Shown piece after piece: positions 2 through 27,992 of a DNA stretch of 51,520 bases. Below the pieces are notes generated by a model that was not told the DNA's origin, did not search any database, and saw only the letters and a list, made by a program, of their open reading frames with translations. The stretch is taken from positions 1 through 51,520 of the forward strand of contig JAJDDY010000016.1 in NCBI GenBank assembly GCA_029260075.1, written 5' to 3'. Source of the DNA: Phycisphaerae bacterium (GTDB lineage: Bacteria > Planctomycetota > Phycisphaerae > UBA1845). Numbering within the stretch: the first letter of the stretch is position 1; each line of letters begins with the position of its first letter. The position numbers were made by a program, and so were the translations under genes.

Positions 2-127
2 AGCAAACTGGAAGGGGTCAACAACAAGATCAAAGTCATCAAACGCATCGCCTACGGCTTTCACGATCTCGACTACTTCGCCCTCAAAGTCAAACAGGCC
101 CTACCGGGGCGTACTTCCAACAACTAA
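2..127 (+). CDS. ISL3-family transposase, C-terminal fragment
   Basis: An open frame enters from the left edge and stops at a TAA at 125-127. Its 41 codons read like the C-terminal end of ISL3-family DDE transposases, with the typical EGVNNKIKVIKRIAYGF stretch followed by a D-Y-F-x-L-K-V-K helix. The family catalyses cut-and-paste movement of insertion sequences. The start and the catalytic acidic residues lie outside the window, so it cannot be said whether the gene is whole. No terminal inverted repeat is evident just downstream. The fragment marks the left end of the window as mobile-element territory, next to an integrase. Confidence 0.75.
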   Translation, partial: SKLEGVNNKIKVIKRIAYGFHDLDYFALKVKQALPGRTSNN

Positions 128-841
128 TTTGGAGGAGAACCGTATTGTTCCAGCTTCTCTACCCAACATGCCTTGGAGCCGACGTATGCCGGCAGAAACT
201 TGGTCCCATTCATCTTTTTCCCCTACCTGTTTGGAAGTGGTTTTGAGCCAGCATGAGCTGGCGTCGTTCGACGCCCGTGGCCCGTTGCCACGTGCACTGT
301 GTGGTGTTGGTGGCGTTGTGTTTTGCCTACGGAAGTCTGCTTTCGACGAATGGGTTTGGGCGTGGTCGCAGGTGCGACTAGCTGTTGCACCGTGGGAGTG
401 GCACGGTGCGGTGTGCGGTCGGCGTAGCAGATGTTCCCCGAGGCCTGGTGGACGTCTGTCGTTTTCCTGATTCCCATAAGGCGTTCTAGATCGCGCCCGA
501 GAATCACCCGCCGAGCCGCTGCCGGCGTGACCTGGTAGTGCGACTCGAATCAGCGGATTTGGTGCGGAAACCGCTGCTCTTGGGCTTCTTGGCGGCTCGA
601 AAGTCGTAGGCCGCCGGCGAGAGTGCGGAGCACAGATGCGGCGGGCATCGTCGGTTGCGGCGGTTCAGCGAGCGCGTCGGAGGATCATGCCGGTGTGACG
701 AGTGACGCCGATAACGTCAGGTCGGATGTTGCATATTAAGCGGAGACGAGACGCGACCCTGGCATTGGTGACTCGGTGAGCAGGTGCGCGCGAACGGTGG
801 CCCGACAGGGATGGCGGCGCATCACTTCCGTAGGCAATCGC
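128..841. other. Intergenic stretch, no supported gene
   Basis: About 700 bases between the transposase end and the excisionase-like gene. The open frames here lack a ribosome binding site and recognisable protein features, and they conflict with each other. It holds one copy of the CGTAGGCCG word at 605-613, which recurs through the first 16 kb. Confidence 0.5.
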
Positions 842-862
842 GTTGCTTCCCCTTGAAGCAAC
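842..862 (+). other. Perfect 8-bp hairpin next to a start codon
   Basis: GTTGCTTC (842-849) pairs perfectly with GAAGCAAC (855-862) around a CCCTT loop. The first possible ATG of the next gene follows directly at 863. The hairpin could hide that start codon, mark a terminator without a U-tract, or be part of a recombination site. Confidence 0.4.
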
Positions 863-1525
863 ATGGTCGCCTCGACGCACATCCAACCCATGCGCCCGCA
901 GTTATCGGAGAGCCCGATAGACTGGCGCATGGACATCGAGCTACATAGCGGCGGGGACAACGGATATTCGTCGGGCGGATTCGGCTCGACGAATTCCAAC
1001 GGCCCATTGCGTCTACGTTTGAGGCAGCCGTGCGACGATGCCGTGGATTCTTCCACGACAGACCTACTTGTTCGAGAACTTCTTCATCGCATCAATGATC
1101 TCCAGGCGCGAATCGAATGCCTGGAGATTCGCCAGCAGACGTCGCAACGCACTGAGCCGAATTTCGACGCGGACGTTGAAGCGGAACCCGCCCAAGATGG
1201 ATTCGATGACCCGGACGAAGTCGTCGGCGCGGAACCATCACATTACGAAGAGCAAGACGGTGGCACACGGCTGAACGATCTGCCGCGCGGCCCGCTGGCC
1301 ATCGACGTCGTGGCGACGGCACTCGGCAAGACGGTGCGAACGCTGCGCGGCTGGTGCCAAGTCGAGAAATACGAGATCCCCGCGCACAAGGAGGCGGGCT
1401 ACTGGCGCTTCTATCGTGACGAACTCTTGGCCTGGCATGTGGACTATGAGCGAGTTTCCCGTCGCGATGCGAAACGCGCCCAAGCCAAGAGGAGGAAGAC
1501 GAAGCATGGCAACCAAAGGATATGA
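863..1525 (+). CDS. Excisionase-like helix-turn-helix protein
   Basis: A 220-residue protein. Residues 70-92 form a short leucine-rich coiled coil (LLHRINDLQARIECLEI). An acidic linker follows. Residues 145-195 look like a MerR/excisionase-type winged HTH (AIDVVATALGKTVRTLRGWC, then a GYWRFYRDELLAW wing). The C-terminal tail is strongly basic. The last 20 bases overlap the start of the integrase gene, so the two are translationally linked. By position and fold it is a good candidate for the recombination directionality factor of that integrase, but this is inference. The start is uncertain: the ATG at 863 sits at the foot of a hairpin and has no Shine-Dalgarno sequence, and the in-frame ATG at 929 is an alternative. 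Confidence 0.6.
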   Translation: MVASTHIQPMRPQLSESPIDWRMDIELHSGGDNGYSSGGFGSTNSNGPLRLRLRQPCDDAVDSSTTDLLVRELLHRINDLQARIECLEIRQQTSQRTEPNFDADVEAEPAQDGFDDPDEVVGAEPSHYEEQDGGTRLNDLPRGPLAIDVVATALGKTVRTLRGWCQVEKYEIPAHKEAGYWRFYRDELLAWHVDYERVSRRDAKRAQAKRRKTKHGNQRI

Positions 1526-2747
1526 CGGCGCGGCCCGCAAGGTCGGACTTCACGTCACGATCTTTCGGCCCAGGCGCAGCAACAACTGGTATATGCGATG
1601 GAGTACGAACGGTCGGGCGATGCCCACTCGGGTCGTGGAGAGATCTACGGGTCAAAGCGTCCTCGCGCTGGCGATGAAGGTAGCGCAGAAGAAAGAGGAT
1701 GAGTTCGAACGTTCGCGGCTCAACGGCGACAACAAGACGGAAAACAAGAGACGTATCCTTCTCGACCACGCCGTTCGCGTTCACCTCGACGACCTCAAGA
1801 GCGCGGGGCGGGGCCACGAACACCTCAAAAAGACGCGACAACGTCTGGTGAGACTCAAGACTTACCTGCGCCGCGACGGCATTCGCCACCTGGATGAGAT
1901 CACGACCCGTGTGGTGCAGGAATTCGTCAACATGCTGAGTCAAGAACACAGGCCGCGCACGGTGAAGAACTATGCGACGACGTTTACGAGCTTCTTCAAT
2001 GCGCTGCTAGCCTACGAATGGATCCCAAAAAACCCGGCCGGAATCGGCCGGGGCGGAAAGCTCAGGCTGCCGACGATACCGGAGGGCGAACAGCGCGCCG
2101 CCCGCAAGAAAGACCTGGCCAAGCGAGTCCCGACACGCACGGAATACCGCGACCTCCTCGATGCCTGCGACCCGTGGGCTGCGGACGCTGTTCAACTCAT
2201 CGCCAACACGGGCATCCGCTTCGGCGAGTTGATGTTTCTAACAGTTGGCGACGTTGACCTGGACGATCGGACACTGCTCGTCGGATTCAAGGAACTCGCA
2301 TATCCGATGCCCAAGTCAATCCACCGACTACTCAAGGATCCGTCACGAAATCTGTGGTGGCCCAAAGACGCGACCGACCGGCGGATTCCGTTGACGTCCA
2401 TCGCGCTCGACGTAATTCAGCGGCGTATGGCCATCGCCCGCAAGTCCGAGTGCCCGTGGCTGTTTGCCAACAACGCAGGCAACCCTCGCGCGCATAACAA
2501 GGCACTCGATCTGTTGAAAGCGGCGGCGGTCTCGTCCGACGTGATGATGGACGCCGACGGCAAGTCGCGTTTGGCATGGCACACCCTGCGCCGATACTTC
2601 GTATCCATCGCGTCAACGTGCATGAGCCTGCCGAGTGTTCTGGAGAGCGCGGGGCACGACTCCTACGCGATGTGGAAGCTCTACAAGGAGACGGACAACG
2701 ACGCCGTGCTGGAGGACTTCAAACGGTTCGATGGACTGATGGGTTAG
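1506..2747 (+). CDS. Tyrosine recombinase / integrase
   Basis: A 413-residue site-specific recombinase. The start at 1506 is chosen for a perfect AGGAGG at 1490-1495. Residues 80-170 form the core-binding (SAM-like) domain and the catalytic domain follows. Visible active-site residues are R238 (TGIRFGEL), H359 and R362 (WHTLRRYF), H384 (SAGHDS) and the nucleophile Y393, nine residues after H384 as usual in the family. Known members integrate and excise genomic islands, prophages and conjugative elements, often at tRNA or tmRNA genes. It overlaps the HTH gene upstream. A tmRNA gene lies 34 kb to the right with its 3' end facing this region, which would suit such an enzyme, but no second copy of that 3' end is visible on this side. 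Confidence 0.93.
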   Translation: MATKGYDGAARKVGLHVTIFRPRRSNNWYMRWSTNGRAMPTRVVERSTGQSVLALAMKVAQKKEDEFERSRLNGDNKTENKRRILLDHAVRVHLDDLKSAGRGHEHLKKTRQRLVRLKTYLRRDGIRHLDEITTRVVQEFVNMLSQEHRPRTVKNYATTFTSFFNALLAYEWIPKNPAGIGRGGKLRLPTIPEGEQRAARKKDLAKRVPTRTEYRDLLDACDPWAADAVQLIANTGIRFGELMFLTVGDVDLDDRTLLVGFKELAYPMPKSIHRLLKDPSRNLWWPKDATDRRIPLTSIALDVIQRRMAIARKSECPWLFANNAGNPRAHNKALDLLKAAAVSSDVMMDADGKSRLAWHTLRRYFVSIASTCMSLPSVLESAGHDSYAMWKLYKETDNDAVLEDFKRFDGLMG

Positions 2748-2805
2748 ACACTGGGGCGATTCGTGGATGTAGACATGATGAACGAACAAGCTGGCGGACG
2801 TGACT

Positions 2806-3162
2806 CTACTCCATCACCGCGTCGTATATTCCATGCATCCCCGGCAGACGCGGCGAATCTGAGGTCCAGGACTCGGATGCCAACACGTCATCTGATACGA
2901 GGTGGCCATCGAACATCAGGTCGTCGATCGAACCGTGATCCTCGGCGAAGTGACGGAGCGCGTGCAAGGCGGCCGCGAGCCTGTCCTGTCGAGTCTTGTT
3001 CGGAGGAAACTCCCTCTTGTCGAATACATAGCCAAGAATCATCTCAGCGGCGATGGGCATCTCGCCACGAACCGCACGATCGAAAACGCTTGCAACCAGC
3101 CGTTCCTGAGAAATATCCTGCGGCCAACCCAGTGCTGCGATGATCCTCGTCGTCTCGTCCAT
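2806..3162 (-). CDS. Small protein of unknown function
   Basis: A 118-residue protein that I do not recognise. The start is placed at 3162 because AGAGGAGA lies just upstream on the minus strand. A longer frame to 3348 has no such site. The sequence is mixed helical (MDETTRIIAALGWPQDISQE, then RLAAALHALRHFAEDHG), without membrane segments or cysteine clusters. It is one of few minus-strand genes in the 2.8-16 kb array and faces away from the leader-preceded genes. A CGTAGGCCG word lies upstream of it at 3285-3293. Confidence 0.6.
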   Translation of the reverse strand: MDETTRIIAALGWPQDISQERLVASVFDRAVRGEMPIAAEMILGYVFDKREFPPNKTRQDRLAAALHALRHFAEDHGSIDDLMFDGHLVSDDVLASESWTSDSPRLPGMHGIYDAVME

Positions 3163-3437
3163 GTGGTCTCCTCTGCGGTTCGACATGTCGCGGCGATTCC
3201 GCAAATCAATATCAAGCGGCGTCATCGCGCACCCGCGTTCCGCGCGTTCTTGCGCAGTTGAGCCAGGTCTTGCGACACCGAATCCGTAGGCCGCACTGGT
3301 AACGCATCGCCCGCAGAACCACATCCGATTGGAGCCAAGTCTCCCCATGATTCATCGTGGGCGGTCGGACTGGTGCCATTCTGCCTGGGCGCATCGCTCT
3401 CTCAACACGGGAGCCGAGCCCTCGCACGCCCGTCAAA

Positions 3438-3543
3438 ACAGTCCGCAGGAATAAAGGGGTATTGTTAGGTAGAGGACGACTTCGGGAGAGTCCCGGGTCG
3501 GAGAGACTAACTCACGGGCGAGGCGCCCAAGGGGAACGGAACA
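3438..3543 (+). ncRNA. L1 leader, copy a (predicted structured 5' leader)
   Basis: First of three related sequences that end right before small genes. Conserved parts are an AAGGGG..TTAGGTAGAGG block, a first stem CGGGA/TCCCG (3483-3487 with 3491-3495), the single-stranded-looking CTAACTCA, and a second stem GGGCG/CGCCC (3516-3520 with 3524-3528), then AAGGGGAAC and the ATG at 3544. Compared with copy c, a G-C pair in stem one is replaced by A-T, which keeps the pairing. It may be a structured 5' untranslated region, a promoter plus leader, or a small RNA. Its function is unknown. Confidence 0.6.
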
Positions 3544-3891
3544 ATGAAGGTGTGCGAACTATGCGAGGAACATCCGGCGGTGAACGACGGCATGTGCATC
3601 AAGTGCCATGAGGACATGGTCAGCTTCGAGAAGTCGCCCGAAGGCGTCGTGCTGAGAATCCTCAAGCAAATCCTGTCGGCGGCTGAGGAGGGAGGCCTCA
3701 TGGTCAGGCAGTCCAACGCCATCGCAGTCAAAGTCTTGAGGATGATAGCGAGGACAGAAGGCACGCTGTGCGGATGCCCAGAGTGCGACGGCACGGTGAC
3801 CGTGGATGACATCTGCGACGACGTGATTGGGCATGTCGAGGATATCATCAGCGAATTCCGCGAATTCGGATGCGACGACGACGCAGAATAA
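3544..3891 (+). CDS. Small zinc-ribbon-like protein behind leader L1a
   Basis: A 115-residue acidic protein. It opens with CELCEEH..CIKCHED, a likely zinc knuckle, and has a second cysteine group (CGCPEC) near residue 78. The last 20 residues (GHVEDIISEFREFGC) are nearly repeated by a stray fragment at 12394-12462, so this gene family had another copy in the array. It follows leader L1a with only a few bases between. No enzyme motif is seen. The zinc knuckles suggest protein or nucleic-acid contact, but that is inference. Confidence 0.65.
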   Translation: MKVCELCEEHPAVNDGMCIKCHEDMVSFEKSPEGVVLRILKQILSAAEEGGLMVRQSNAIAVKVLRMIARTEGTLCGCPECDGTVTVDDICDDVIGHVEDIISEFREFGCDDDAE

Positions 3892-3898
3892 ACGCTGA

Positions 3899-3923
3899 GG
3901 TGCCGGTTCATACCGGCGGCACC
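3899..3923 (+). terminator. Hairpin after the small zinc-ribbon gene
   Basis: GGTGCCG (3899-3905) pairs with CGGCACC (3917-3923), with an inner CCGG repeat. There is no U-tract after it, so factor-independent termination is uncertain. A related sequence follows the stray copy of the gene end near 12480. Confidence 0.4.
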
Positions 3924-4017
3924 ACCTTCGGCAGAAGTTGATGCGGATAGAACAGGCAGTGGAAGATCACGGAGCGTATCCGGATCCGAAGAACACAACT
4001 TACTTGGAGAAAATGCC

Positions 4018-4518
4018 ATGGAAAACATTCCCAGTGGACAGGCGAGGCAGACGCCGAAAGTCGAGACGCAATGTGCTCCCGAGACATGCGAAGACGGCCA
4101 GAACACTACGTTGAAGCCAGCCAAGGCGGGGTCGGTGCGGTTGTGCGAAGTGTGCGGTGAACCGGACTGCCTGGGAGCGAAGAGCGCGAACGTCTGGCAA
4201 GCCATCAGGCGCGGGAAGGCGCTCGACTCGCCACCGTACGGCTTTGCCGAGGCTTGGTGCCGGGGCGGCAGGAGGATGCTGATGGCCGAAGGCGCTGAGG
4301 AGTCCGAGGTAGTGACGAACATCATCGGGTGGAGGTCCTGCGGTGTGACCTGGCGCCGCATCACGTACTGGCTGAACGAAAAGGGAATCCGCATGCGGGA
4401 TGGTGGAGCATGGACTTGGACGCGCGTGCGCGCGGTAGCGGAGTTCGTCTACTACGATCAGTGGCTGCTGGTGGACCGATTCCCCATCGAGTCGCTTCGG
4501 GCCACGCCAAAATCGTGA
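4018..4518 (+). CDS. Protein with resolvase-like helical segment, unknown function
   Basis: A 166-residue protein started at 4018, behind a TTGGAGAA site. A small cysteine pair group (CEVCGEPDC) lies near residues 43-51. The C-terminal third (ITYWLNEKGIRMRDGGAWTW, then TRVRAVAEF) resembles the helix-turn-helix of the recombinase domain in large serine recombinases, where a phrase of this kind precedes DNA contact. No serine catalytic domain is present, so at best it is a DNA-binding relative. It lies in the small-gene array between two unrelated small genes. Confidence 0.55.
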   Translation: MENIPSGQARQTPKVETQCAPETCEDGQNTTLKPAKAGSVRLCEVCGEPDCLGAKSANVWQAIRRGKALDSPPYGFAEAWCRGGRRMLMAEGAEESEVVTNIIGWRSCGVTWRRITYWLNEKGIRMRDGGAWTWTRVRAVAEFVYYDQWLLVDRFPIESLRATPKS

Positions 4519-4713
4519 CTCGGTGAAGTACTCTGCTTCATTCGAGTTGGTTCCCAGCGATTGCCAGTCACCTGTCCGACGGGGGAGGAGATAGAACAGG
4601 TTGTGGCGGATCGCGGGCGAACCCGAGGGTTCTCATTGACGACTGACATCCGGACAGAACGAATGGGGGAGCGATTGACGACGTCTGAGCAATACGGAGA
4701 GAGTGACATCGGC

Positions 4714-5097
4714 ATGGAGACATGCGTGCACTGCCAGGCACTGACCGCCGAGATCGACTACTGCGACCGCTGCGACGAGTCGGCCTGCGATCGCTGCCTG
4801 GAGAGACCATCGGAGTGCATGATCGCCCCGCGACGCCGGCTGGAGGAGCTGGAGGAATTCCTTGCGGACTCCGACGAAATCACGCTGGCCGCCCTCAAGG
4901 AGCTGGCGATGGAGCGTACGCGGGGAGAGCTGCTGACCGATGCGCGGGGATTCTATGACGGGAGCAGAGCCAACGACCTTCTGCTGGAGGCGACCACCGA
5001 CGGGGCGACGCTCGGCGACCTCAAGGAAAGTGCAAGGCAGGTTGCAAACGGGGAACGCGAGTGGCTTCTCAAGAAACTGGGCTTGCGGGAGGGTTAG
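4714..5097 (+). CDS. Small zinc-finger protein with helical tail
   Basis: A 127-residue protein. The start at 4714 follows a GGAGAG site. An upstream extension to 4561 has lower-quality sequence and no binding site. Residues 3-27 hold a C-x2-C..C-x2-C..C-x2-C cysteine pattern (CVHCQALTAEIDYCDRCDES begins it), like a B-box or FYVE-style zinc fold. The remainder is acidic and helical (RRLEELEEFLADSDEITLAA). No known family is recognised. It is similar in style to the other cysteine-rich small genes of this array. Confidence 0.6.
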   Translation: METCVHCQALTAEIDYCDRCDESACDRCLERPSECMIAPRRRLEELEEFLADSDEITLAALKELAMERTRGELLTDARGFYDGSRANDLLLEATTDGATLGDLKESARQVANGEREWLLKKLGLREG

Positions 5098-5202
5098 CGC
5101 GACGTGTGTCCCGCTGGCCACGTCGATCGCCGACACCTACGGCGGGAGACCGAAATGGCAGGGAGTATAATGGTAGGGCAATGACGCCGGGGGAGAATCA
5201 AG

Positions 5203-5577
5203 ATGACTGATGAACACAAGAGGAAGAAGAGGATGCTGACGCGACGGGAACGCGAAGCGATAGGCGCTTTCGTCGAATATCGCGCGCTCACGGGTCTGTG
5301 GCACAAGCAACCTGGCATCGACAAGGTCGCCGACGAGTACGGCATCGAATCGGGGAGAATGGACACGCTGGCCAACTACGTCTTCGCCAAGCCTCCTTGG
5401 GACGGCGTCAACCCCGCGTGCGACGAGTGCGGGGAATACCTCGACAACGTCAATGACCCGGACGAGACCTACGGTTCATTCATGCTTTGTCCAAGCTGCG
5501 ACGCCGAGTATTGGGAACTCGATGCAGATGACCAGTCCGACTACCTCTACAACCTGTTTCCCGCGTCGTTCCGGTAG
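5203..5577 (+). CDS. Small zinc-ribbon protein, unknown function
   Basis: A 124-residue protein behind a GGGGGAGAA site. A basic start (KRKKRMLTRRERE) leads into a helical middle. A zinc ribbon of two C-x2-C pairs follows (CDECGEYL around residue 73 and CPSCDAEYW around 97). The tail is acidic. No catalytic motif is visible. The arrangement of an N-terminal basic helix with a C-terminal ribbon suggests nucleic-acid binding, by inference only. Confidence 0.6.
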   Translation: MTDEHKRKKRMLTRREREAIGAFVEYRALTGLWHKQPGIDKVADEYGIESGRMDTLANYVFAKPPWDGVNPACDECGEYLDNVNDPDETYGSFMLCPSCDAEYWELDADDQSDYLYNLFPASFR

Positions 5578-5772
5578 AAGCACTCGCACATAGGTTACGC
5601 CGAAGAGGGGGCTGAGCTACACAGGTCGCCGCGGCGGGCCCCTCTCCGGCGGGGTCTTGCGCTCCGTCAGCCGCTGAAACGAGGACAAACGGACACCGCC
5701 TTTCGGACATAGCCCTACAGGTCGCACAGAAAGGTTGCAGCATCGCTGACCACCCCGCATACTCGGCACCCC

Positions 5773-6918
5773 ATGAATGTAACACAGCGACAGGTCCATC
5801 TCGTTCTCAGGCAGGCGCTCGAGGACGGAACCGACGTGAAGCTCACCGAGCAGGCTCAGCGCTTCCGCGAGGAGGGTTTCGGTTGGCGTTACGACGGACT
5901 TGCCGACTGGACGATGGACGCGATCTTCGAGAGGCTGCGTGAGCTTGGCGTGGAAACGGACGCCGATCGGTTCGCCGAACAGGCTCGCACCGCAACTCGC
6001 TGCATGCTGCTGGAGGAGAACTGGCGCGAGGGCCTGGCCTTGGACGACAGCCCGTGGGACGACTTTCCGTTCCTGGCCTCCGAGGAGTTGTGGCGGCGAC
6101 TGACGCCGGAACTGCCGTGCCCCGAACTGATCGCCGAACGACTCGAGAAACACATCCGCTCCACTGACAGGCTAAGCCACGTAGCCACCTACGATCAACA
6201 GCGGGCGGACATGGCCGAGGTGGACCTCGTACTCGACTACCTCGATCGCTTCGAGAGCGGCGAACGCGCCGCGAAGTTCGATGAGCTGCGCGACTGCGGC
6301 CTCCACGACTTCGGTTCCTGGCTGCTTGAGCTGGTGCTCATGCGCGGCGACCTCTTTCCGGATGAGGTGACACGCCTCGCGGATCGCATGTCGGAGTTCT
6401 ACGAGGCCGAGAACTTCCAGGGCGACCTCGCCTGCGCGCTGGCCCACGCGAAGCGAGAGGACGAGGCTCTCGAACGGGTGCGCAGGAACCTCGAACTGTA
6501 CCCCGACGACGTGTGGATCCGGATCAAGGCCGGTGACGCGCACGAGGAGATGGGCGACGACGAGCAGGCGCTCCGGCTCTACAAAGAAGCCCTACCCATG
6601 GCGACCGAGCCGTACGACTGGGACGGCGTCGAGGAGCGCCTCGTCGATCTGCTGGAGGCCACCGGGCGCGCCGAGGTGTGGGAGGAACTCAGACGGAAAC
6701 ACCCGCGCCCCGCGTCGCCGTCCTTGTTGTCCACCAGCGAATCCGATCTCAGGTCGTTAGCCACACACGAAGGGCAGCCCCCCGGTTGGCTCGCCGAGGA
6801 TGCGGAACGCACGGCACCCGTGTTGCCATCACGTCCCGACGTCAAGGTCGGTAGAAACGACCCATGCCCATGCGGAAGCGGCAAGAAGCACAAGAAATGC
6901 TGCCTGGCTCGGGTCTGA
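5773..6918 (+). CDS. TPR-like helical protein with C-terminal SEC-C motif
   Basis: A 381-residue protein. The first 300 residues are alpha-helical and acidic. A tetratricopeptide-like stretch is seen around residues 210-275 ([20 protein letters not shown], then [20 protein letters not shown]). It ends in a textbook SEC-C zinc motif ([19 protein letters not shown]), the same type found at the end of SecA and in many small proteins. SEC-C binds zinc and mediates protein contacts. The last 50 codons and about 220 bases downstream are duplicated at 11379-11758. It may be an adaptor or chaperone-like protein, but the client is unknown. Confidence 0.75.
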
Positions 6919-7144
6919 GCTACAGCGAAACGGCTTCGCCGAATATCGCGTGCGGTGCGGAGCCTTGCGGCGGTCAGGTTTGCCTCCTCCATATCCCTGA
7001 ACGGGATCCCTTTCGACCATCAGAAGCGTAGGCCGGGCTCGATACCGCTCAGAGCCGTGTGGAAACGACCGCTCGCACGAAGTTCGCGAGACACGCATCC
7101 AGGTTACCGGTCGTTCGCTCGGCAAGCAGTGCCGGTTACCGGCA
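6767..7144 (+). repeat. Segmental duplication D1, copy A
   Basis: This segment covers the SEC-C end of the TPR gene and about 220 bases of noncoding DNA after it. It matches 11379-11758 closely in order and length. The noncoding part is at least as similar as the coding part. It ends in a palindrome (TGCCGG TTA CCGGCA, 7130-7144) present in both copies. Confidence 0.85.
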
Positions 7145-7309
7145 CCCAACGTCTCCGCCGCTTCTTGATGACCCCCTCCCCCTCTCCAAAAGAAACCCTC
7201 GCGCAACTCCGTAGGCCGTAGACGCACGCGGCAGTTACCAAGTGTTGGGACCAATGGGGTCGCGACGGGCAGAATTCAGTTGGGCGTCAAGCGCCGGGAG
7301 GCAACCGAG

Positions 7310-7876
7310 ATGAGTAAGCGAACACAGCGAAACCGGAAACTCCGGAAACGAGGCAAGCAGTCTCGCGCGAGACACGAAGACCGCAAGCTACGTAACGGCG
7401 AGAACACCCTGCTGTGGCACTACACCACGGGTCAGTGCTTCAAGGACATCGTTGACGACGGGGTCATCCGTCCCTCCACAGCGAGAGCCGCCAAGGGAGA
7501 ACGGCCAATCGTCTGGTTCTCGTCCAACCAGGAATGGGAACCGACCTCCACGAAAATCTTCGTCGCCCACAACGGCGAAACTTGGCGGCTGTCGAAGGAG
7601 GAGTTGCGGGTGACGGGCAACGGGTTGCTGCGGTTCGGAGTGACTCGACGCACTGCAAGACTCGACTGGACCGCGATGAAGCGACAAAGCGGAATGTCGC
7701 GTGCCACGGCACGGGAACTCAAGGTCATAGGCCGGAGGATGGGATCCAAGCCGGAATGGTGGTACGGCACTTTCTATCCCGTCCAGCGCTCCGAGTGGGT
7801 CGCCATCGACGTATTGGATGAGGGGCAGTGGGTGCGAGTGTTCAGGGACGGCGAACTGCTGGAACGGTGTGCGTAG
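7310..7876 (+). CDS. Unknown protein with ART-like opening motif
   Basis: A 188-residue protein started at 7310, behind GGGAGG. The N-terminus is highly basic (SKRTQRNRKLRKRGKQSRAR). It is followed by LLWHYTTGQCFKDIVDDGVI and, later, VWFSSNQEWEPT. An L-[WY]-H-[YF]-T start followed by I-x-x-x-G-x-[IL] is seen in several ADP-ribosyltransferase-fold families such as DarT-like proteins. The later catalytic glutamate cannot be assigned with confidence. A toxin or nucleic-acid modifier is possible. No antitoxin-like partner is adjacent, since the next gene is preceded by leader L1b. Confidence 0.6.
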   Translation: MSKRTQRNRKLRKRGKQSRARHEDRKLRNGENTLLWHYTTGQCFKDIVDDGVIRPSTARAAKGERPIVWFSSNQEWEPTSTKIFVAHNGETWRLSKEELRVTGNGLLRFGVTRRTARLDWTAMKRQSGMSRATARELKVIGRRMGSKPEWWYGTFYPVQRSEWVAIDVLDEGQWVRVFRDGELLERCA

Positions 7877-7904
7877 CGCGCGTTGAATTCGATGATGCGC
7901 CCGC

Positions 7905-8021
7905 GAGCCTACGAGACCGGTCCGCGAAAAGATAGGGGTAACATTAGGTAGAGGAAGACTGCGGGAGTGGCCCGGGTCAAAGACTGCTAACTCAAGGGCG
8001 AAGCGTCCAAGGGGGAACATC
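7905..8021 (+). ncRNA. L1 leader, copy b
   Basis: Second L1 copy. It shares with copy c the upstream block CGAGCCTACGAGA and GGTCCGC, then TAGGGGTAA and ATTAGGTAGAGG. Stem one is CGGG/CCCG (7962-7965 with 7971-7974). Stem two is GGGCG/CGTCC (7996-8000 with 8004-8008), where one G-C has become a G-T wobble. It ends 4 bases before the ATG at 8022. Confidence 0.65.
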
Positions 8022-8546
8022 ATGAAGATATGGATGATAACGGTGGCCGGAAACGACCGCCCACTACACATCGCGTCCACGCCGGAGAAGGCGCAGGCGT
8101 TCGCCAAGGTGTACCTCCACTCCAACTTGGACGAGGGCTTCCACCTGTCCGTCCGGCCGATGCAGTTGGACGGGAATCTCGACGCGGACGAGACCGAGTG
8201 GCTGGCCAACGGCGACCCCGACGTCTGCATGCTGATGTGCGACTTTGGCCTCGACCTGCACCGTGGGGAGATGGTCGAGATGGCGACGGGCGCGACCGAC
8301 ACGGACTGGTTCTGTTCGGAGTGCGCCGCCAAGCGCACCAAGCTAGAAACCGACGCATACGACGACCTGTCCGACCGCTTCACAGGCGAACCGTGTCTCG
8401 CCTGCGGCTGCCATGAGTTCACGGCGGTAGAACATATGGGCAGTGTGTTGTTCGGGTGCGACGGCGACGACTGCGTCATGGATGTCTTGGCGAACGTGGC
8501 GGTGACGGAACTCAGGAAGAGATACGGGAGCGAGAGACAGTCATGA
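8022..8546 (+). CDS. Small acidic zinc-ribbon protein behind leader L1b
   Basis: A 174-residue acidic protein. The first 50 residues look like a compact alpha/beta unit (MKIWMITVAGNDRPLHIAST). From about residue 92 on there are cysteine pairs CSEC, CLACGC and a later CDGDDC, consistent with a zinc ribbon. No enzyme motif is recognised. It follows leader L1b immediately. Together with the 3544 and 11958 genes it belongs to the set that shares this leader, although the three proteins themselves are not alike. Confidence 0.65.
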   Translation: MKIWMITVAGNDRPLHIASTPEKAQAFAKVYLHSNLDEGFHLSVRPMQLDGNLDADETEWLANGDPDVCMLMCDFGLDLHRGEMVEMATGATDTDWFCSECAAKRTKLETDAYDDLSDRFTGEPCLACGCHEFTAVEHMGSVLFGCDGDDCVMDVLANVAVTELRKRYGSERQS

Positions 8547-8643
8547 ACAAGCGGCCGCAGGAGACACCGTAGAGGCGTCACCGTCGGCAAGCCCGTGGCG
8601 ACCGTGCCGACGCCGACGGTCAAGTGATATAGGAGAGGAGATC

Positions 8644-8991
8644 ATGAACGACAAAGAAAAAGAACGAAACTGTGCGGATTGGGTGTGTACCCTGTTGACC
8701 CCGGGGACGGAGACACACTCGGCCGTGGTCGAAGCTGCAAAGATGGACAGCAAACGGCTGCACGACGAGCAGGCGGCGGCGGCGGTGGTGGTCATGGCGG
8801 AGATGTTGGGTCTCGAACAGTGCGACGAGACATTCGACGCCATGCACGCTGACCTGGAGCGACTGTTCCATCCGGGCATGCGGGCGGCCATGAAGCGGAG
8901 GATCGCGGACGGGACATTCGGCGACGAGGATTTGACCGTTCCGCAGGTGTTGGCGATGGCAGCGGTCGAGATGCGGTCGCGGTGGGAGTAA
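8644..8991 (+). CDS. Small helical protein, unknown function
   Basis: A 115-residue protein behind a strong GGAGAGGAGA site. It is predicted helical throughout, with an alanine-rich core ([20 protein letters not shown]) and no cysteine cluster or membrane segment. It is not recognised as a family. It starts about 100 bases after the previous gene and may be co-transcribed with it under leader L1b. A broken YcaQ-like fragment follows its stop codon at once. Confidence 0.6.
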
Positions 8992-8995
8992 CGCG

Positions 8996-9181
8996 CAGGA
9001 GATCAAGGCGACGATGAAACGCCTCGTCGAGAAGGGCAAGGTAATTCCGTGCCCCCACGGCGTCCTCCTGTCGCCGTTCGACCCGCTGCTGTGGGACCGC
9101 GTCCGGCGGCTCTTCGGCTTCGACCAGGTCCTTGAGATCTTCAAGCCAGCCGCGCGACGCACCTACGGCTACTACGCCTGA
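8996..9181 (+). pseudogene. YcaQ-like (HTH_42) gene fragment, shard 2
   Basis: An open stretch ending in TGA at 9179-9181 reads [12 protein letters not shown], then [20 protein letters not shown] and EIFKP..RTYGYYA. This is the middle-to-late part of the YcaQ/AlkX-like winged-helix family. It closely matches the gene at 13790-15124 at the same place, but lacks the piece between the first two motifs. It has no start of its own. It also carries the GF..EIFKP part that the larger copy has lost, so it is a remnant of another copy and not a simple duplicate. Confidence 0.75.
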
Positions 9182-9307
9182 TCGCATTCACCGCCTCGTC
9201 GTATTTCGTTTCTCTCACCGTATTGGCCTCGGCGGCATGCACGTCCGACTCCGAGGCTTTGCCTGCATCCGTCCGTGTCGCCCGCACTTTTGTACCGTTG
9301 GTTCCCA

Positions 9308-9505
9308 TCACGCACCTTCCTTTCTATCTCTTGGTTTCGCCGTGTCCCTGATCGGCCTGTCAGTTATCTTCGCCTTCTTCTTGACGGGCCTGACCCAGCC
9401 ACATTTGTGGCACACGACCCTGACCCAGTCGGAACCTATCCGCATACCCAACGCGGTGTTGTCGCACTCGGGGCACTTGCCACTTACTTCGCCTGTCATT
9501 GCCAT
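9308..9505 (-). CDS. Small two-knuckle zinc-ribbon protein
   Basis: A 65-residue protein on the minus strand. AAGGAGAGAAG sits directly before its ATG at 9505. Two C-x2-C knuckles (CPECDN and CHKCGW) are 19 residues apart, as in rubredoxin-like or transcription-factor zinc ribbons. The C-terminal half is lysine/arginine rich (VKKKAKITDRP). It probably binds nucleic acid or a protein partner, but the partner is unknown. The long plus-strand frame across this place is a shadow. Confidence 0.65.
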   Translation of the reverse strand: MAMTGEVSGKCPECDNTALGMRIGSDWVRVVCHKCGWVRPVKKKAKITDRPIRDTAKPRDRKEGA

Positions 9506-9757
9506 CGCTTCTCTCCTTGGTTTCTGCCGAACACTATTGCCCGGTCATGGAATTATACGCACTGAGGCCGAGCTACCTTCCGCTCTCGTGTCCGCCCAAT
9601 ACGCCAGCGACTCCGGCTTGCATCCTCGCTTCTGCCCAACCTCTGGAATCGACGCGGCTAGGTCACCGCAGTTGCAAACCGAATCCGTAGGCCGCGCCTG
9701 GCACGCACTGGTTGCAAACGGACGACCCTCCTTGGAGAGATTGTCGAGCCGACCGCT

Positions 9758-9860
9758 CCGAATCCAATCCGTCAACGATAGAACGTGTAGACGGAGGCCG
9801 TGGCATGTGGCCACGGCGACACTTGGACTAGGCAAGGGGCGATGCCCCGGAGGGAACGTG
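9758..9860 (+). ncRNA. L2 leader, copy a
   Basis: First of three copies of a second leader type. Predicted stems are TCCGTC/GACGGA (9768-9773 with 9790-9795), GCCGTGG/CCACGGC (9797-9803 with 9811-9817) and GGGGC/GCCCC (9836-9840 with 9844-9848). Then comes GGAGGGAA and the ATG at 9861. Stem three lies next to the Shine-Dalgarno-like GGAGGG, so it could gate translation. A CGTAGGCCG element precedes it at 9686-9694. Confidence 0.65.
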
Positions 9861-10127
9861 ATGAAGAAGCGAATCGAGATGGATGACTTGGACATCAACG
9901 CATGCACGCGGCAACAGGAGGAGGACAAGCGTGTCCCGGTGACGACGATCTGGAAGTGGAACACGCCCGAGGAGGCGAGTGCGTTTCTTGAGGGCGTGGA
10001 GTGGGTGAACGACGGTGCGCTGAGGGCCTGGATCGACAGGGAGAACCCATCAGACGTACTGGTGCATGACGACGAGACCATCGACGACTCCGACGAGTGG
10101 CCGATCGTGCGTCATGGCGGCGAGTAG
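9861..10127 (+). CDS. Small acidic protein behind leader L2a
   Basis: An 88-residue acidic protein. The start at 9861 is fixed by the leader, which ends with GGAGGGAAC seven bases earlier. It contains no cysteine cluster. The middle (TTIWKWNTPEEASAFLEGVE) looks like a small alpha/beta unit, and the end is rich in aspartate and glutamate. No family is recognised. The much longer frame that extends upstream crosses the leader and is not used. Confidence 0.6.
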   Translation: MKKRIEMDDLDINACTRQQEEDKRVPVTTIWKWNTPEEASAFLEGVEWVNDGALRAWIDRENPSDVLVHDDETIDDSDEWPIVRHGGE

Positions 10128-10217
10128 TGACAGGAGCATGAACTGCGTGGCAGAGACGGGCTGCAGGGGTTGTGGCCGTGCCTGGAAATCTTAGGAATGC
10201 GAAGAAGGAGACCGGAA

Positions 10218-10526
10218 ATGCAAGATGAGATAAGCAAGGATCAATTGTACTGGTTGGCGATCAACGGCGCATCGTGCGCCATGTCCAACATGCCTATGCC
10301 AGCGACTGTCACGGTCACGCCAAGGCCGCAGATGCTTGTGGGGTTCCTAACGCACGCGGAAGCTAAGACCGCGCAGCACAGCATGCTGACGGCCCCGATA
10401 GCCAAGTGCCGGAAGCTGATGGACAAGTGGAAGAGATGTGATGATGTGGTGATGAGGGTGTTCAAGAAGCCGGAACGTCCAACGCATGGGCCGACCATTT
10501 GGCAATGCCAAGGCGATGGTGGTTGA
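10218..10526 (+). CDS. Small protein, unknown function
   Basis: A 102-residue protein started at 10218 behind AAGGAGA. The first half is hydrophobic and mixed (QLYWLAINGASCAMSNMPMP), and the second half is basic and helical with scattered cysteines. There is no clear motif. It lies between two L2-led genes and may be transcribed together with the first. Confidence rests on the good ribosome binding site and the continuous frame. Confidence 0.5.
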   Translation: MQDEISKDQLYWLAINGASCAMSNMPMPATVTVTPRPQMLVGFLTHAEAKTAQHSMLTAPIAKCRKLMDKWKRCDDVVMRVFKKPERPTHGPTIWQCQGDGG

Positions 10527-10746
10527 GCTGCGGTGCGGTCAACCGGAAACGCTCGTGCGGAAGCACCGAGAGTCCTTTGATGAGTACGGGGATCTGGCTG
10601 TCGGTTCGCATGATCGCGCGGTGGCCGGCGGTATCCCCGTAAAGGAAGTCGAGGCTTGGCGCTTGACCCACCCGTAGGCCGCGCTCGGCACGCACGGGTT
10701 GCGATGGGCGTCCAGTCGAATAAGGCGCCCTTTGGTGCCAAGTACG

Positions 10747-10850
10747 CCGAATCCAATCCGTCCACTATAGAACGTGAGGACGGAGGCCGTGGCATGTGGC
10801 CACGGCGACACTTGCACTAGACAAGGGGCGATGCCCCGGAGGGAAAGAGA
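10747..10850 (+). ncRNA. L2 leader, copy b
   Basis: Second L2 copy, nearly identical in layout to copy a: TCCGTC/GACGGA (10757-10762 with 10779-10784), GCCGTGG/CCACGGC (10786-10792 with 10800-10806), the GGGGC/GCCCC stem, then GGAGGGAA before the ATG at 10851. The loop of the first stem differs between copies while the stem is unchanged. A CGTAGGCCG element again precedes it (10673-10681). Confidence 0.65.
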
Positions 10851-11264
10851 ATGAAGGAAGACAGTGGATCACAGAGGACGAAAGATAGCGAGATGATACT
10901 GGTCACGGACTACATTGATAGTGAGATCGGCACCAGCCTGTGGTTCTGTCCGTACGACCCGTGGGTCGTCAAGCATAGGCGGGCTTGCCGTAGGGCACTC
11001 AAGAGACTGCACGACGACAACATGCCCGAAGACCGCTTCAGGCTTTGGCTCGGCGATGCCATCGAGGTGACCCGGAGTCGGATCGACCAGGATGCGACAT
11101 GGCTCGATCGTTTCCCCGAATTCGCATGGGTCAAGTGCGCAAAGGACGCTCCGCCCTCACGCCGGAGTTCCGTCAACGCGAAGGTGTTCGAGATTCTGCG
11201 CGATCCCAATGTACGATCGCATTACCAGTGCCTTTGTCACAATTGTTGCGCCAAGGGGAATTAG
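10851..11264 (+). CDS. Small protein behind leader L2b
   Basis: A 137-residue protein with the start given by the end of leader L2b. A hydrophobic/aromatic segment lies near residues 27-40 (TSLWFCPYDPWVVKHRRACR). It is followed by helical basic and acidic stretches and a C-terminal CLCHNCC cysteine group that could bind a metal. I do not recognise the family. It is unrelated to the 9861 product although both have the same leader. Confidence 0.6.
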   Translation: MKEDSGSQRTKDSEMILVTDYIDSEIGTSLWFCPYDPWVVKHRRACRRALKRLHDDNMPEDRFRLWLGDAIEVTRSRIDQDATWLDRFPEFAWVKCAKDAPPSRRSSVNAKVFEILRDPNVRSHYQCLCHNCCAKGN

Positions 11265-11378
11265 TCCGCGGAGCCTAAACTGCGCCCGGCTTCGACAGGT
11301 TCGGTGAACCAATGGGACAGAACTCAAACCGCGCGGGATAGAACACAAGAAGTGGAGTCCCTGACTGGAGCCAGGTGA

Positions 11379-11531
11379 ACGAAGGGCAGCCCCCCGGGTT
11401 GACTCGCTGAGGATGCGGAACGCACGGCACCCGTGCCGTCGGCACATCCGGATCTCAAGGTGGGCAGGAACGACCCGTGCCCCTGCGGCAGCGGACGCAA
11501 GCACAAGAAATGCTGCATGGTTCGGGCCTGA
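11379..11531 (+). pseudogene. SEC-C C-terminal remnant (second copy of TPR/SEC-C gene)
   Basis: The stretch keeps the open frame for [19 protein letters not shown] and the stop codon but lacks the helical domain in front. It matches the end of the 5773-6918 gene. It is therefore a truncated copy carried along with the noncoding DNA behind it. The cysteines of the zinc motif are intact, but no plausible start with a ribosome binding site is seen. Confidence 0.75.
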
Positions 11532-11758
11532 GCTACAGGGACACAGACCTCCCCGAATAGCGCCTGCGCCGCGGAGCCTTGCGGCGTTCAGATTTGCCTC
11601 CTCCATATCCCTGAACGCGATCCCTTTTGACCATCAGAAGCGTAGGCCGGGGTCGATACCGCTCAGAGCTGTGTGGACACGACCGCTCGCACGAAGTTCG
11701 CGACACACTCATCCAGGTTACCGGTCGTTTGCACGGCAAGCAGTGCCGGTTACCGGCA
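11379..11758 (+). repeat. Segmental duplication D1, copy B
   Basis: It matches 6767-7144 through the SEC-C coding end and the following noncoding segment, up to the shared palindrome TGCCGG TTA CCGGCA (11744-11758). Leader L1c begins about 55 bases further. Copy A is followed by an L1 leader too, but about 760 bases later. Confidence 0.85.
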
Positions 11759-11811
11759 GGCTCGCGCCCTCCATACCCCTGCGCGTAGCGCGCGCCGACC
11801 TTCATGGAGCG

Positions 11812-11957
11812 CTCGCGAGCCTACGAGATCGGTCCGCAAAAAGTTAGGGGTAATATTAGGTAGAGGCAGACCGCAGGAGTGTCCTGGGCTGCGAGGGCTA
11901 ACTCATGGGCGAAACGCCCGAGGCTGCCGGCGAAGTCCGGCGAAAGGAGAAAAGGAA
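11812..11957 (+). ncRNA. L1 leader, copy c
   Basis: Third L1 copy. Stem one is CAGGA/TCCTG (11874-11878 with 11882-11886), where copy a has CGGGA/TCCCG. A second-position G-C pair has become A-T on both sides. Stem two is GGGCG/CGCCC (11907-11911 with 11915-11919). An extra GCCGG-type hairpin and AAAGGAG precede the ATG at 11958. Confidence 0.65.
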
Positions 11958-12371
11958 ATGAACAACAGCACAAGAATCGAGATGTCACAGGCTAGTGTGT
12001 TCCAGACAGACGCCATCGCGCTGGCCAAGGCGGCCTGCCCGGCACTCACGAACGGGGAATGGGAGGTCATACTGAACGCCCTCAATGGGCACAGGGACGC
12101 GGTGATGATCAGCGTCGAACGCGACCGGGGTGCTCAAATCATCGACGCACTCAGCGACACGCGGCTGAATGTATCTGACGCCGCGCACATGGCGGCGGGG
12201 ACGCACTCCGACTGGCCGATGGACGACCCGGATCCCGACGGCCCGGGGGCGTCTTTGTCGCACAAGTATCCAACATGGACGGAAACCCAGTGGCTGGCGG
12301 TGTCGCTGTTGGCGCAGGCGTTCTGGCAATGCGGGCTTCTAGCCGAAGGGCTTCCGTTGGTCGGCGACTGA
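11958..12371 (+). CDS. Small protein behind leader L1c
   Basis: A 137-residue protein started at 11958 behind GAAAGGAGAAAAGG. The N-terminal half contains helices (DAIALAKAACPALTNGEWEV), and the C-terminal half has a hydrophobic helix (ETQWLAVSLLAQAFWQCGLL) that is amphipathic and not a clear membrane span. No motif is recognised. A frame extending upstream runs through duplication D1 and the leader and is not taken as coding. Confidence 0.6.
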   Translation: MNNSTRIEMSQASVFQTDAIALAKAACPALTNGEWEVILNALNGHRDAVMISVERDRGAQIIDALSDTRLNVSDAAHMAAGTHSDWPMDDPDPDGPGASLSHKYPTWTETQWLAVSLLAQAFWQCGLLAEGLPLVGD

Positions 12372-12393
12372 ATCGGGCGGTACCCGCCCCGGC

Positions 12394-12462
12394 GTGATCG
12401 GACACATCGAGGAGATGATCGGCGAATTCCGCGAATTCGGATGCGTTGACAACGCGGATTGA
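12394..12462 (+). pseudogene. Remnant of the 3544-type zinc-ribbon gene end
   Basis: The frame from 12394 to a TGA at 12460-12462 reads VIGHIEEMIGEFREFGC, almost the same as the last residues of the gene at 3544-3891. No start or cysteine knuckle remains. It follows the 11958 gene by only 22 bases, as if a recombination event had joined the tail of one array gene to another. Confidence 0.7.
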
Positions 12463-12499
12463 CTGGTAATGCCCAGGTTCTTGCCGGCGGCGTCACCGT

Positions 12500-12530
12500 A
12501 GAAGGGCGTGCCCGGGGGGCACGCCCTTCT
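12500..12530 (+). terminator. Perfect 13-bp hairpin
   Basis: AGAAGGGCGTGCC (12500-12512) pairs with GGCACGCCCTTCT (12518-12530) around CGGGG. There is no long U-tract. It probably ends transcription of the 11958 unit before leader L2c begins. Confidence 0.55.
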
Positions 12531-12556
12531 TCGGCGGCATCGCCAAGCCGATCGCC

Positions 12557-12681
12557 CCGAATCCGATCGGTCAACGATAGAACGTGTAGACGGAGGCCGT
12601 GGCATGTGGCTGCGGCGACACTTGCAGTTGGCAAGCCGGATGGAAGGCTGCCGAAGATCACTATCAATTGGGAGGAGAGAG
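12557..12681 (+). ncRNA. L2 leader, copy c (diverged)
   Basis: Third L2 copy. The middle stem is GCCGTGG/CTGCGGC (12596-12602 with 12610-12616). Two of its seven pairs are now G-T wobbles, so pairing is kept although the sequence changed. The first stem has one mismatch, and the GGGGC/GCCCC stem is replaced by different sequence. It ends with GGGAGGAGAG before the ATG at 12682. Confidence 0.55.
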
Positions 12682-13167
12682 ATGAAGCTCAAGCTCTGTA
12701 CAAACGGGGAAGTGCTCTGGAATTCGGTGTCCGGGGACGACCTCCCAGGCGGGGTTGACTACGCCGAGGTGGCTGGCTGGTGGCGGGAGGCGGCGATTAC
12801 GGTCTTGGACCTGGCCTGCGTCGAATACGATGTGTCGCACCCGGGCCTCCACGCCTGGAACGGGGAGAACACGCACACCGGGCAGTGCGGCGGCCTGATG
12901 TGGTGGGGCAAGCCCACCACGGACGAAGACGAAGCAATCGAGCACGCATCCGATGTGGGCGACCGCGCCGTGTGCGAGGAGGCTCTCCGTTGCTACGGCG
13001 ACGACATGGAACACTGGGCCTCCGCCGTGTCCGAGGCGCAGGCCGAGGGCGCAGACGGTGTTGACGCCGAACTAGCCCACGCCCGCGAGTCGCTGGAGTG
13101 GGCGAGGGGGGCGCACACGCTCCTCCGCGAGGCACTCCGCGGCGTCACGGCGGTGAGTTCTGACTGA
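12682..13167 (+). CDS. Small acidic protein behind leader L2c
   Basis: A 161-residue acidic protein with a strong GGGAGGAGAG site. The middle holds several tryptophans and aspartates (VAGWWREAAITVLDLACVEY), then a glycine/histidine-rich stretch (HPGLHAWNGENTHTGQCGG). The C-terminal half is helical and alanine/glutamate rich (DDMEHWASAVSEAQAEGADG). I do not recognise the family and see no catalytic motif. Confidence 0.6.
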   Translation: MKLKLCTNGEVLWNSVSGDDLPGGVDYAEVAGWWREAAITVLDLACVEYDVSHPGLHAWNGENTHTGQCGGLMWWGKPTTDEDEAIEHASDVGDRAVCEEALRCYGDDMEHWASAVSEAQAEGADGVDAELAHARESLEWARGAHTLLREALRGVTAVSSD

Positions 13168-13290
13168 AGCGCACTTGATTAGCGGAAGAGGCTGCGGAGA
13201 CCAGCGCCGAACACGGCCGGCTAGAACATGAGTAAGAGGAATCAGATGGATACCATGTGAACGAAGGCAACACTAACGGAGGGTGAAAAG

Positions 13291-13710
13291 ATGGCAGACT
13301 ACTACACGCAGTATTCGGCAGAGATCGACAAACTGACGGACGACGAGATCAAATGGCTTGAGGTCCGACTCAAAGACATCGAGGACGCGCGTGCCGACGA
13401 CGATGGCCTTGGCGAGGACGACAACGACCTTGGCCAGGTGGAGCTGCAGGACCGGACACTCTGGTTCTGCGGCCGGGAGTCCGGGGACCCTTGGGCTATC
13501 GCCGAGTTCGTGCAGGGCTTCCTCAAGCAGTTTCGCCCGAACGGCAGCTTCTCGATGGAGCACACGTACTCGTGCAGTAGGCCCCGCCTCGACGGTTTCG
13601 GCGGGGGCGCCATCTTCGTTACGGCGGAGAGACTCGAACACGTTGACTCGTCCACATGGCTACGGGCGCAGTGCGAGGAGCACAAGAAGCGGATCACCGA
13701 ACAAACTTGA
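13291..13710 (+). CDS. Small acidic protein, end duplicated downstream
   Basis: A 139-residue protein behind GGAGGGTG. The start is strongly acidic (DKLTDDEIKWLEVRLKDIED), followed by a beta-rich middle with tryptophan and glycine (TLWFCGRESGDPWAIAEFVQ). The last 12 codons and about 100 bases after the stop are duplicated at 16032-16171. The family is not recognised. It directly precedes the GIY-YIG/YcaQ fusion gene, and the same junction recurs at the second copy. Confidence 0.6.
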   Translation: MADYYTQYSAEIDKLTDDEIKWLEVRLKDIEDARADDDGLGEDDNDLGQVELQDRTLWFCGRESGDPWAIAEFVQGFLKQFRPNGSFSMEHTYSCSRPRLDGFGGGAIFVTAERLEHVDSSTWLRAQCEEHKKRITEQT

Positions 13711-13811
13711 TAGGCGCGGCATCGGCGACGGCGGAATACTCGTGAACGAGTGGATAGGACGGGTAGGTCGGCGATGTTAGAATCCGATCATGCCCAACGA
13801 CCGCACAACCA
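13672..13811 (+). repeat. Segmental duplication D2, copy A
   Basis: 140 bases covering the end of the 13291 gene, the spacer and the first codons of the fusion gene. The copy at 16032-16171 has the same length, with scattered substitutions and no gap noticed. Confidence 0.85.
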
Positions 13812-15703: not shown

Positions 15704-16031
15704 TTCGGTCTCCTTCCCCTATCGGAGAAAGCCATCATCTCCGGCCCGGTACGACACCCGGCCTCCAACTTAATATAGACACGGGTTGGAAACCGATTGA
15801 TCGTGCTGTGTAGCGGTGACCCGCTGCCACTTCCAACAACAGTCATATCTTGTCTTTTCGACGGTGACACATCGCGCCACTTGCTGATCCCCGTTACGGA
15901 CTCAGATGCATGATGACGGCAGCCTCCGTAAAGACACTTGATCGCTCAACCCAATCCGTAGGCCGTGCTCGGCGCGAAACGCCGCGGAGAAAATAGAACA
16001 CCTTGATTCATTTTCCTGGCTGTGGGAGCGA
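15704..16031. other. Intergenic stretch with a CGTAGGCCG element
   Basis: About 330 bases without a convincing gene. It contains CGTAGGCCG at 15957-15965, followed by GCTCGGC as at the copy in front of leader L2b, but no leader follows here. AT-rich sequence near 15770 could hold the promoter of the minus-strand gene at 15703. Confidence 0.4.
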
Positions 16032-24741: not shown

Positions 24742-24742
24742 C

Positions 24743-27958: not shown

Positions 27959-27992
27959 CAGATGGATGCGCGCCGTTCAGGAGCCACATGTG

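Follow-up and report, generated by a model that had tools for sequence, protein, structure and literature searches.

Repeated leaders in front of unrelated small genes

The 51,520-nucleotide (nt) stretch of DNA analysed here, referred to as the window, comes from contig JAJDDY010000016.1 of the Phycisphaerae bacterium assembly GCA_029260075.1 and carries, between a gene for a phage-type tyrosine recombinase on its left and a series of defence-type genes on its right, an array of small genes, several of which are preceded by repeated leaders. Fourteen open reading frames (ORFs) between 3544 and 13710 were counted as genes, ORF 4663 being scanned from an inner ATG at 4714. The initial annotation had pointed to one leader, here termed leader A, in three copies (a, b and c; Table 1), and all three are present, each directly followed by an ATG, with identities of 75-82%. 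BLAST self-comparison of the first 16 kb of the window gave 79% over 95 nt for a and b (E 5e-16), 80% over 145 nt for b and c (E 1e-30; 82% with a shorter query) and 75% over 93 columns for a and c (E 1.6e-9). Conserved blocks alternate with variable linkers: TTAGGTAGAGG and CTAACTCA are invariant across the three copies, TAGGGGTAA is exact in b and c while copy a reads AAGGGGTAT, and 8-9 variable nt lie between the predicted first hairpin and CTAACTCA. The repeat proper ends approximately 10 nt 5' of the ATG in a and b; in copy c it runs to 11923 and is followed by 34 private nt (11924-11957) with an extra predicted hairpin.

The pattern is wider than first noted. A second leader family, B, precedes ORFs 9861, 10851 and 12682, and its three copies are 86-92% alike in their common part, with the B1/B2, B1/B3 and B2/B3 repeats all significant in the self-comparison. 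B1 and B2 match through the sixth coding base and then diverge. A possible third pair, C1 and C2, is weak: its members (3946, 4590) are 81% alike over 27 nt and miss the E 1e-3 cut-off of the self-comparison. Neither leader A, beyond a, b and c, nor leader B has a further match in the organism's own genome (4.92 Mb, 93 contigs).

As the initial annotation had held, the proteins behind the leaders are unalike, the best pair among 15 compared all against all reaching only E 0.059, and the DNA past the ATG is 32-34% identical for a and b and 32% for B1 and B2. The suggestion that the leader has been kept for itself also stood up, since A and B end near the starts of unrelated genes and the core of A lies before an unrelated ORF elsewhere: it occurs once outside its own genome, as copy d, on contig JADFMZ010000054.1 of G022 (E 1.2e-6), a 3.2-Mb Planctomycetota metagenome-assembled genome of the same family. 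The repeats begin a few dozen bases 5' of the core and end at the ribosome site or the start codon, limits that we take for those of a 5' regulatory region rather than a gene.

Table 1. Positions of leaders, gene remnants and neighbouring features in the window.
Feature	Position	Strand	Remark
Leader A, copy a	3438..3543	+	before ORF 3544-3891
Leader A, copy b	7905..8021	+	before ORF 8022-8546
Leader A, copy c	11812..11957	+	before ORF 11958-12371
Leader A core, copy a (TTAGGTAGAGG block and predicted first hairpin)	3465..3506	+	37/42 bases as in copy d
CTAACTCA linker, predicted second hairpin (GGGCG/CGCCC) and start of purine-rich ribosome-site stretch, copy a	3507..3533	+	
Leader B, copy B1	9758..9860	+	before ORF 9861-10127 (88 aa)
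Leader B, copy B2	10747..10850	+	before ORF 10851-11264
Leader B, copy B3	12557..12681	+	alike to 12635, then different; before ORF 12682-13167
Possible leader C1 (GATAGAACAGG...)	3946..4017	+	72 nt before ATG of ORF 4018-4518; weak
Possible leader C2 (GATAGAACAGG...)	4590..4662	+	73 nt before ATG 4663 (ORF to 5097); weak
SEC-C gene 3' end and non-coding tail	6767..7144	+	duplicated at 11379-11758, upstream of copy c
Tyrosine recombinase (phage-type integrase), 443 aa	1416..2747	+	left of array
HTH_17-like ORF	863-1525		overlaps start of tyrosine recombinase gene
SEC-C gene remnant	11382-11525		3' remnant
ORF 3544 remnant	12394-12459		3' remnant
GIY-YIG/AlkZ-like ORF 13790 remnant	8987-9118		3' remnant
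ORF 13291 remnant	15984-16067		3' remnant

We favour, with a probability of about 0.5, the reading that leaders A and B are a portable 5' expression cassette (regulatory region, 5' untranslated region (UTR) and ribosome site) that belongs to an integrase-bearing genomic island and is re-used as accessory genes arrive. Recombination would have set copies of the leader before unrelated small orphan genes, and each incoming gene would thereby come under the same control. The downstream part of the cassette would form the 5' UTR and ribosome site of the mRNA, and in the transcript the conserved part could fold, upstream of the ribosome site, into one or two short hairpins. A common trans-acting factor, be it a protein or a small RNA and encoded by the element or by the host, would most likely recognise this conserved part and co-regulate the genes. 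The presence of an integrase gene suggests that the region is a mobile island. If this reading is true, newly arrived genes obtain control by landing behind a portable leader, and the window shows, outside phages and in a planctomycete island, how new genes without a family gain expression and common control. It would further aid in separating real, co-regulated genes from the other orphan ORFs of such islands.

Alternatively, the leaders might be passive by-products, copied only through segment duplication and recombination and without a common function. Copies b and c do lie inside a larger duplicated block that includes the end of the SEC-C gene, sharing 145 nt and, further upstream, 380 columns of that gene end (6767-7144 and 11379-11758), so that they are in part the outcome of block duplication and not independent copies; 3' gene remnants are also scattered across the array. 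However, copy a has the leader alone in common with b and c, the edges of the repeats lie near start codons in both A and B, conserved blocks alternate with variable linkers, and the core is found again in another genome, ahead of a further unrelated ORF. We consider a passive origin unlikely.

Predicted folding of the leaders

The initial annotation had described two short stems at a spacing of 20-21 bases, and the stem-to-stem distance in leader A is indeed 20 nt in a, 21 nt in b and 20 nt in c. The stem changes that it quoted were borne out: the first stem reads CGGGA/TCCCG in a and CAGGA/TCCTG in c, a compensatory pair, and the second stem is GGGCG/CGCCC in a and c and GGGCG/CGTCC in b. 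The first stem of b is CGGGA/GCCCG, in which the last pair is A-G (columns 25-29). Over the proposed helices, standard pairs fill 98% of cells for the three copies of A, 94% when copy d is included and 98% for B, as against 6-60% in a slid-partner control. Among the one-sided transitions in the proposed stems, six of seven keep pairing on the gene strand only and one on the other strand only (binomial 0.06, from a hand tally of events that are not independent). The six are found in the second stem of b, in the 8-bp stem of B3 (two) and at columns 16-37, 19-34 and 3-49; the exception is A-C at columns 17-36 in copy c. Stem columns also vary less than unpaired ones (6/34 vs 20/38 in A, 3/36 vs 9/42 in B, 9/70 vs 29/80 in total), in a comparison biased by the choice of helices by eye from the same sequences. 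The predicted fold energies of B1 and B2, and of these two only, are clearly below those of shuffled sequences (z-scores of -2.2, -3.3 and -0.9 for B1, B2 and B3).

A number of results, together with the shared duplication of b and c, weigh against the favoured reading. In covariation analysis, judged from three to four sequences, the score was reached by 172 of 500 shuffles for the three copies of A, by 130 of 500 for four copies and by all 500 for family B. Leader A folds no better than most of its shuffled versions (z-scores of -1.6, +1.1 and -0.9 for a, b and c), and the RNAalifold structure has columns 6-8 pairing with 45-47 in place of the TTAG/CTAA stem. The pairing itself is imperfect: besides the A-G pair of copy b, B3 has one broken pair, copy d breaks two of the four pairs of the TTAG/CTAA stem, and the mismatches at columns 12-35 of B3 and at columns 4-48 and 6-46 of d pair on neither strand. 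Copy d carries different sequence in place of both the CTAAC partner of the outer stem and the second hairpin, the 3507..3533 part of copy a not being conserved there. The predicted exposure of the ribosome site lies within approximately 1 standard deviation of shuffled leaders in nine of nine leaders, the sole sigma-70-like site in 2700-13800, in a scan that may not fit planctomycete promoters, is on the - strand, and a single homologue of leader A was found outside the window. The proposal of a structured regulatory RNA thus drew a mixed answer: the compensatory pair in c and the wobble-keeping changes on the gene strand speak for it, and the shuffles, the ordinary folding of A and the loss of the outer-stem partner and second stem in d speak against it. 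On its sequence, the leader as RNA is plausible but not proven.

Searches against Rfam at the gathering score gave no match to the leaders, the only match in the window being a transfer-messenger RNA (tmRNA) at 36959-37312; at E up to 5 over 3200-13300 there was one match, at 12141-12336, outside the leaders. A search for a T7-type RNA polymerase, made on account of a resemblance to SP6-like promoters, gave no match, an uninformative negative because control genomes gave none either.

A leader that exposes or hides the ribosome site was considered and is not supported by the folding of the nine leaders against shuffled ones, which leaves recognition by a factor, protection of the 5' end of the mRNA, or a DNA promoter or operator with an incidental dyad. 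We infer that factor binding in RNA ranks first among these and a DNA site second. In the latter case the leaders would be DNA-level elements only, repeated promoters or operators with an imperfect palindrome (GACnnCGGGAnnnTCCCGgGTC) bound as double-stranded DNA, and the RNA fold would be incidental. Being a near-symmetric dyad, the first hairpin could double as an operator; a palindrome accounts for the symmetric change in copy c as well as RNA does; the RNA stability of leader A is unremarkable; and a TAnnnT hexamer, seen by eye, runs into the TTAG block of all three copies. In addition, the authors who described the Start-Associated Sequences (SAS) and extended SAS (ESAS) of mycobacteriophages favour DNA binding for their own inverted repeats (PMC3203893). 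Against this, the wobble-type one-sided changes favour the gene strand by six to one, a weak bias, in a and b the second hairpin directly adjoins the ribosome site, the repeats reach almost to the start codon, which a promoter does not need, and the scan that may not fit planctomycete promoters gave no + strand sigma-70-like site in 2700-13800. We regard a DNA-level element as less probable than the portable 5' cassette.

We also considered whether A, B and C could have diverged within a single class of structured 5' untranslated RNA belonging to planctomycete mobile islands. Such a class, with a common start block (GATAGAAC or RGRTAGAGG) 70-106 nt before the ATG, would give captured orphan genes a universal, plug-in 5' UTR and be read by one element-encoded factor. 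We hold this broader proposal to be doubtful. The 8-mer GATAGAAC has five exact copies in the window against 0.72 expected, all on the + strand (in B1, B3, C1 and C2 and at 11337). With one mismatch it occurs 38 times against 26.3 expected, a count reached in 3 of 100 shuffles. As an unbiased 8-mer search over upstream regions did not recover it, we treat it as a lead only and, given also that the excess with one mismatch is small, do not accept it as a general motif. A longer GATAGAAC pattern gave 24 matches in the genome, and the 20 loci viewed in part (16 of them outside the window) showed no similar leader.

Relatives of the leaders and likeness to known systems

Copy d (L008:1502-1543) has 37 of its 42 bases equal to copy a, after which the similarity ends, and an unrelated 129-aa ORF begins 106 nt past its core motif. 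Judged by eye from a terminal repeat, an insertion sequence (IS) lies directly 5' of the TTAG block, and the upstream half of the leader is therefore not comparable in G022. The IS transposase-like ORF occupies 88-1410 (-) of L008; part of an unrelated gene stands on its far side, and the contig may record an IS-linked rearrangement. Own genome included, leader A turned up in 2 of 60 relatives. A model of its core (R1) matched 2 of 51 genomes of the family and, at E up to 0.1, 4 of 397 genomes of the class; two of these four are convincing, and the weak hits in G233 and G344 (27.6 and 23.8 bits) were judged to be chance after inspection. The leader A pattern had no matches in viral contigs and hit one stretch in Genome Taxonomy Database (GTDB) genome contigs, the contig of G022, in a scan from which the own genome was possibly absent. 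Leader B was found in 1 of 60 relatives, its own genome, with no pattern match in viral contigs. Its model (R2) matched 4 of 397 class genomes including its own; the other three matches were weak (25.5, 25.2 and 22.5 bits) and were rejected, one having the appearance of a CRISPR-type repeat array, one overlapping long open frames and the third, L080, on score alone.

The initial annotation had likened the leader to the start-associated repeats before small phage genes, and the A and B repeats do stop near the start codons of unrelated genes. In cluster K mycobacteriophages, SAS/ESAS repeats stand directly before the start codons of different gene families in the non-structural half of the genome, nearly always in the same orientation, number 11-19 per phage genome and in approximately half of cases have an inverted repeat upstream of the ribosome-site part (PMC3203893). 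Our leaders likewise adjoin the start codons of unrelated genes in one orientation. However, the 13-bp GGGATAGGAGCCC, which SAS/ESAS have at the ribosome site, is absent from 3001-13800 on both strands at up to two mismatches, and there are 3+3 copies. Where SAS/ESAS have an upstream pair of imperfect inverted repeats of 17 bp, the proposed stems here are of 4+4 and 5 bp in A and 6 and 8 bp in B, and no inverted repeat of 17 bp lies inside a leader among the 25 longest of 37 listed pairs. Furthermore, most one-sided stem changes here keep RNA pairing, unlike the departures in SAS/ESAS, which are reported as not generally supporting it (PMC3203893). The leaders may work like SAS/ESAS without being one.

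Promoter early stem-loops (PeSLs) of T4-like phages are small regulatory stem-loop cassettes among shuffled small genes (PMC4503421). The leaders may resemble them in being small cassettes between small genes with a stem-loop, here a predicted one. PeSLs are phage elements and have an early promoter; in 2700-13800 no recognisable one was found by a scan limited to sigma-70-like sites, whose one hit is on the - strand. The likeness drawn here is one of layout. We would call the leaders akin in layout to SAS/ESAS and PeSLs, without assigning them to either. Judged by title, the literature searched gave no description of planctomycete leaders of such kind, which is weak evidence of absence.

An array of unrelated small ORFs, several with a repeat, beside a tyrosine recombinase also recalls integrons, and the repeats could be recombination sites of an integron-like cassette system moved by that enzyme. 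The recombinase nevertheless falls far short of the integron-integrase model (TIGR02249), with 30.7 bits where the cut-off is 265. In an inspection of the leaders by eye, these read TTAG...CTAAC, lie 5' of the genes, where attC sites would be 3' of the cassettes, and lack RYYYAAC...GTTRRRY, the order of the attC boxes. Such a system is very improbable here.

The surrounding array and proposed island

The region resembles an array of small orphan ORFs that is undergoing recombination. Of the 14 array ORFs, 11 are without a Pfam match at E <= 0.01; among the others, ORF 5773 carries SEC-C/TPR motifs, ORF 5203 matches HVO_0758 (3e-6) and ORF 4018 weakly matches 'Recombinase' (7e-5). On the - strand, seven ORFs of the region were likewise negative against Pfam at E 0.01, and five of these overlap leaders. 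Searches for protein relatives covered ORFs 8022, 13291, 12682 and 4018. Relatives of ORF 8022 were confined to its own among 114 genomes of the order, with none in viral contigs, and those of ORF 13291 to its own among 397 genomes of the class, plus a second, partial copy in the window. ORFs 12682, 13291 and 4018 had no phage relatives, and 12682 and 13291 none in viral contigs. When DNA from 3000-10800 was compared with plasmids and phages, matches were confined to the SEC-C motif stretch and a glycosylase-like stretch.

Four C-terminal (3') remnants, each of a gene present in longer form elsewhere in the window (Table 1), indicate that recombination took place in the array. The 209-nt tail behind the SEC-C gene (6936-7144 and 11550-11758) is 92% identical between its two copies, compared with 82% in the preceding, mostly coding 154 nt. 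A 10-mer, CCGTAGGCCG, has five exact copies, on the + strand only (3284, 7209, 9685, 10672 and 15956), each followed after 28-154 nt by a leader, an ORF or a gene remnant.

Around the integrase-bearing region, element ends were not found. For the 3' end of the tmRNA as an attachment site, the window holds no second copy of at least 14 bases and one 12-mer, at 38980 on the - strand. Relatives of the integrase gave 19 matches besides its own, in 14 other genomes of 114. Fifteen such regions, several of them short since their contigs end, were compared with themselves and gave no small-gene array with repeated leaders of the A or B kind. One of them (L066, genome G003) has a 73-nt intergenic repeat (5964-6036 and 6974-7046; 93%) with a CCCGGCGCGCCGGG palindrome, which lies 87 nt upstream of a 281-aa ORF and 66 nt upstream of a 349-aa ORF and is leader-like and of different sequence. 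L069 has a 59-61-nt repeat (77%), one copy preceding a 157-aa ORF and the other lying within a larger ORF; the repeats in L061 and L065 and one pair each in L063 and L074 fall within coding sequence, and the second repeat set of L074 is a short tandem repeat. Since direct repeats like the tmRNA 3' end occur near the integrase relatives in L071 (2112-2159 and 6700-6747) and L063 (10080-10106 and 15269-15295), the relatives in genomes G002 and G054 may integrate at tmRNA genes.

Beside the small-gene array, at 17011-18815 (-), a ThiF-family E1 with a JAB domain adjoins a Prok-E2_E protein, a bacterial ubiquitin-like conjugation gene pair. Further to the right, a defence-type cluster at 20769-31121 comprises a PglX-like DNA methylase, a type IIG-like restriction enzyme and an AriA/OLD-type ATPase, together with a weak Eco57I-type methylase match and a weak PLD-domain match.

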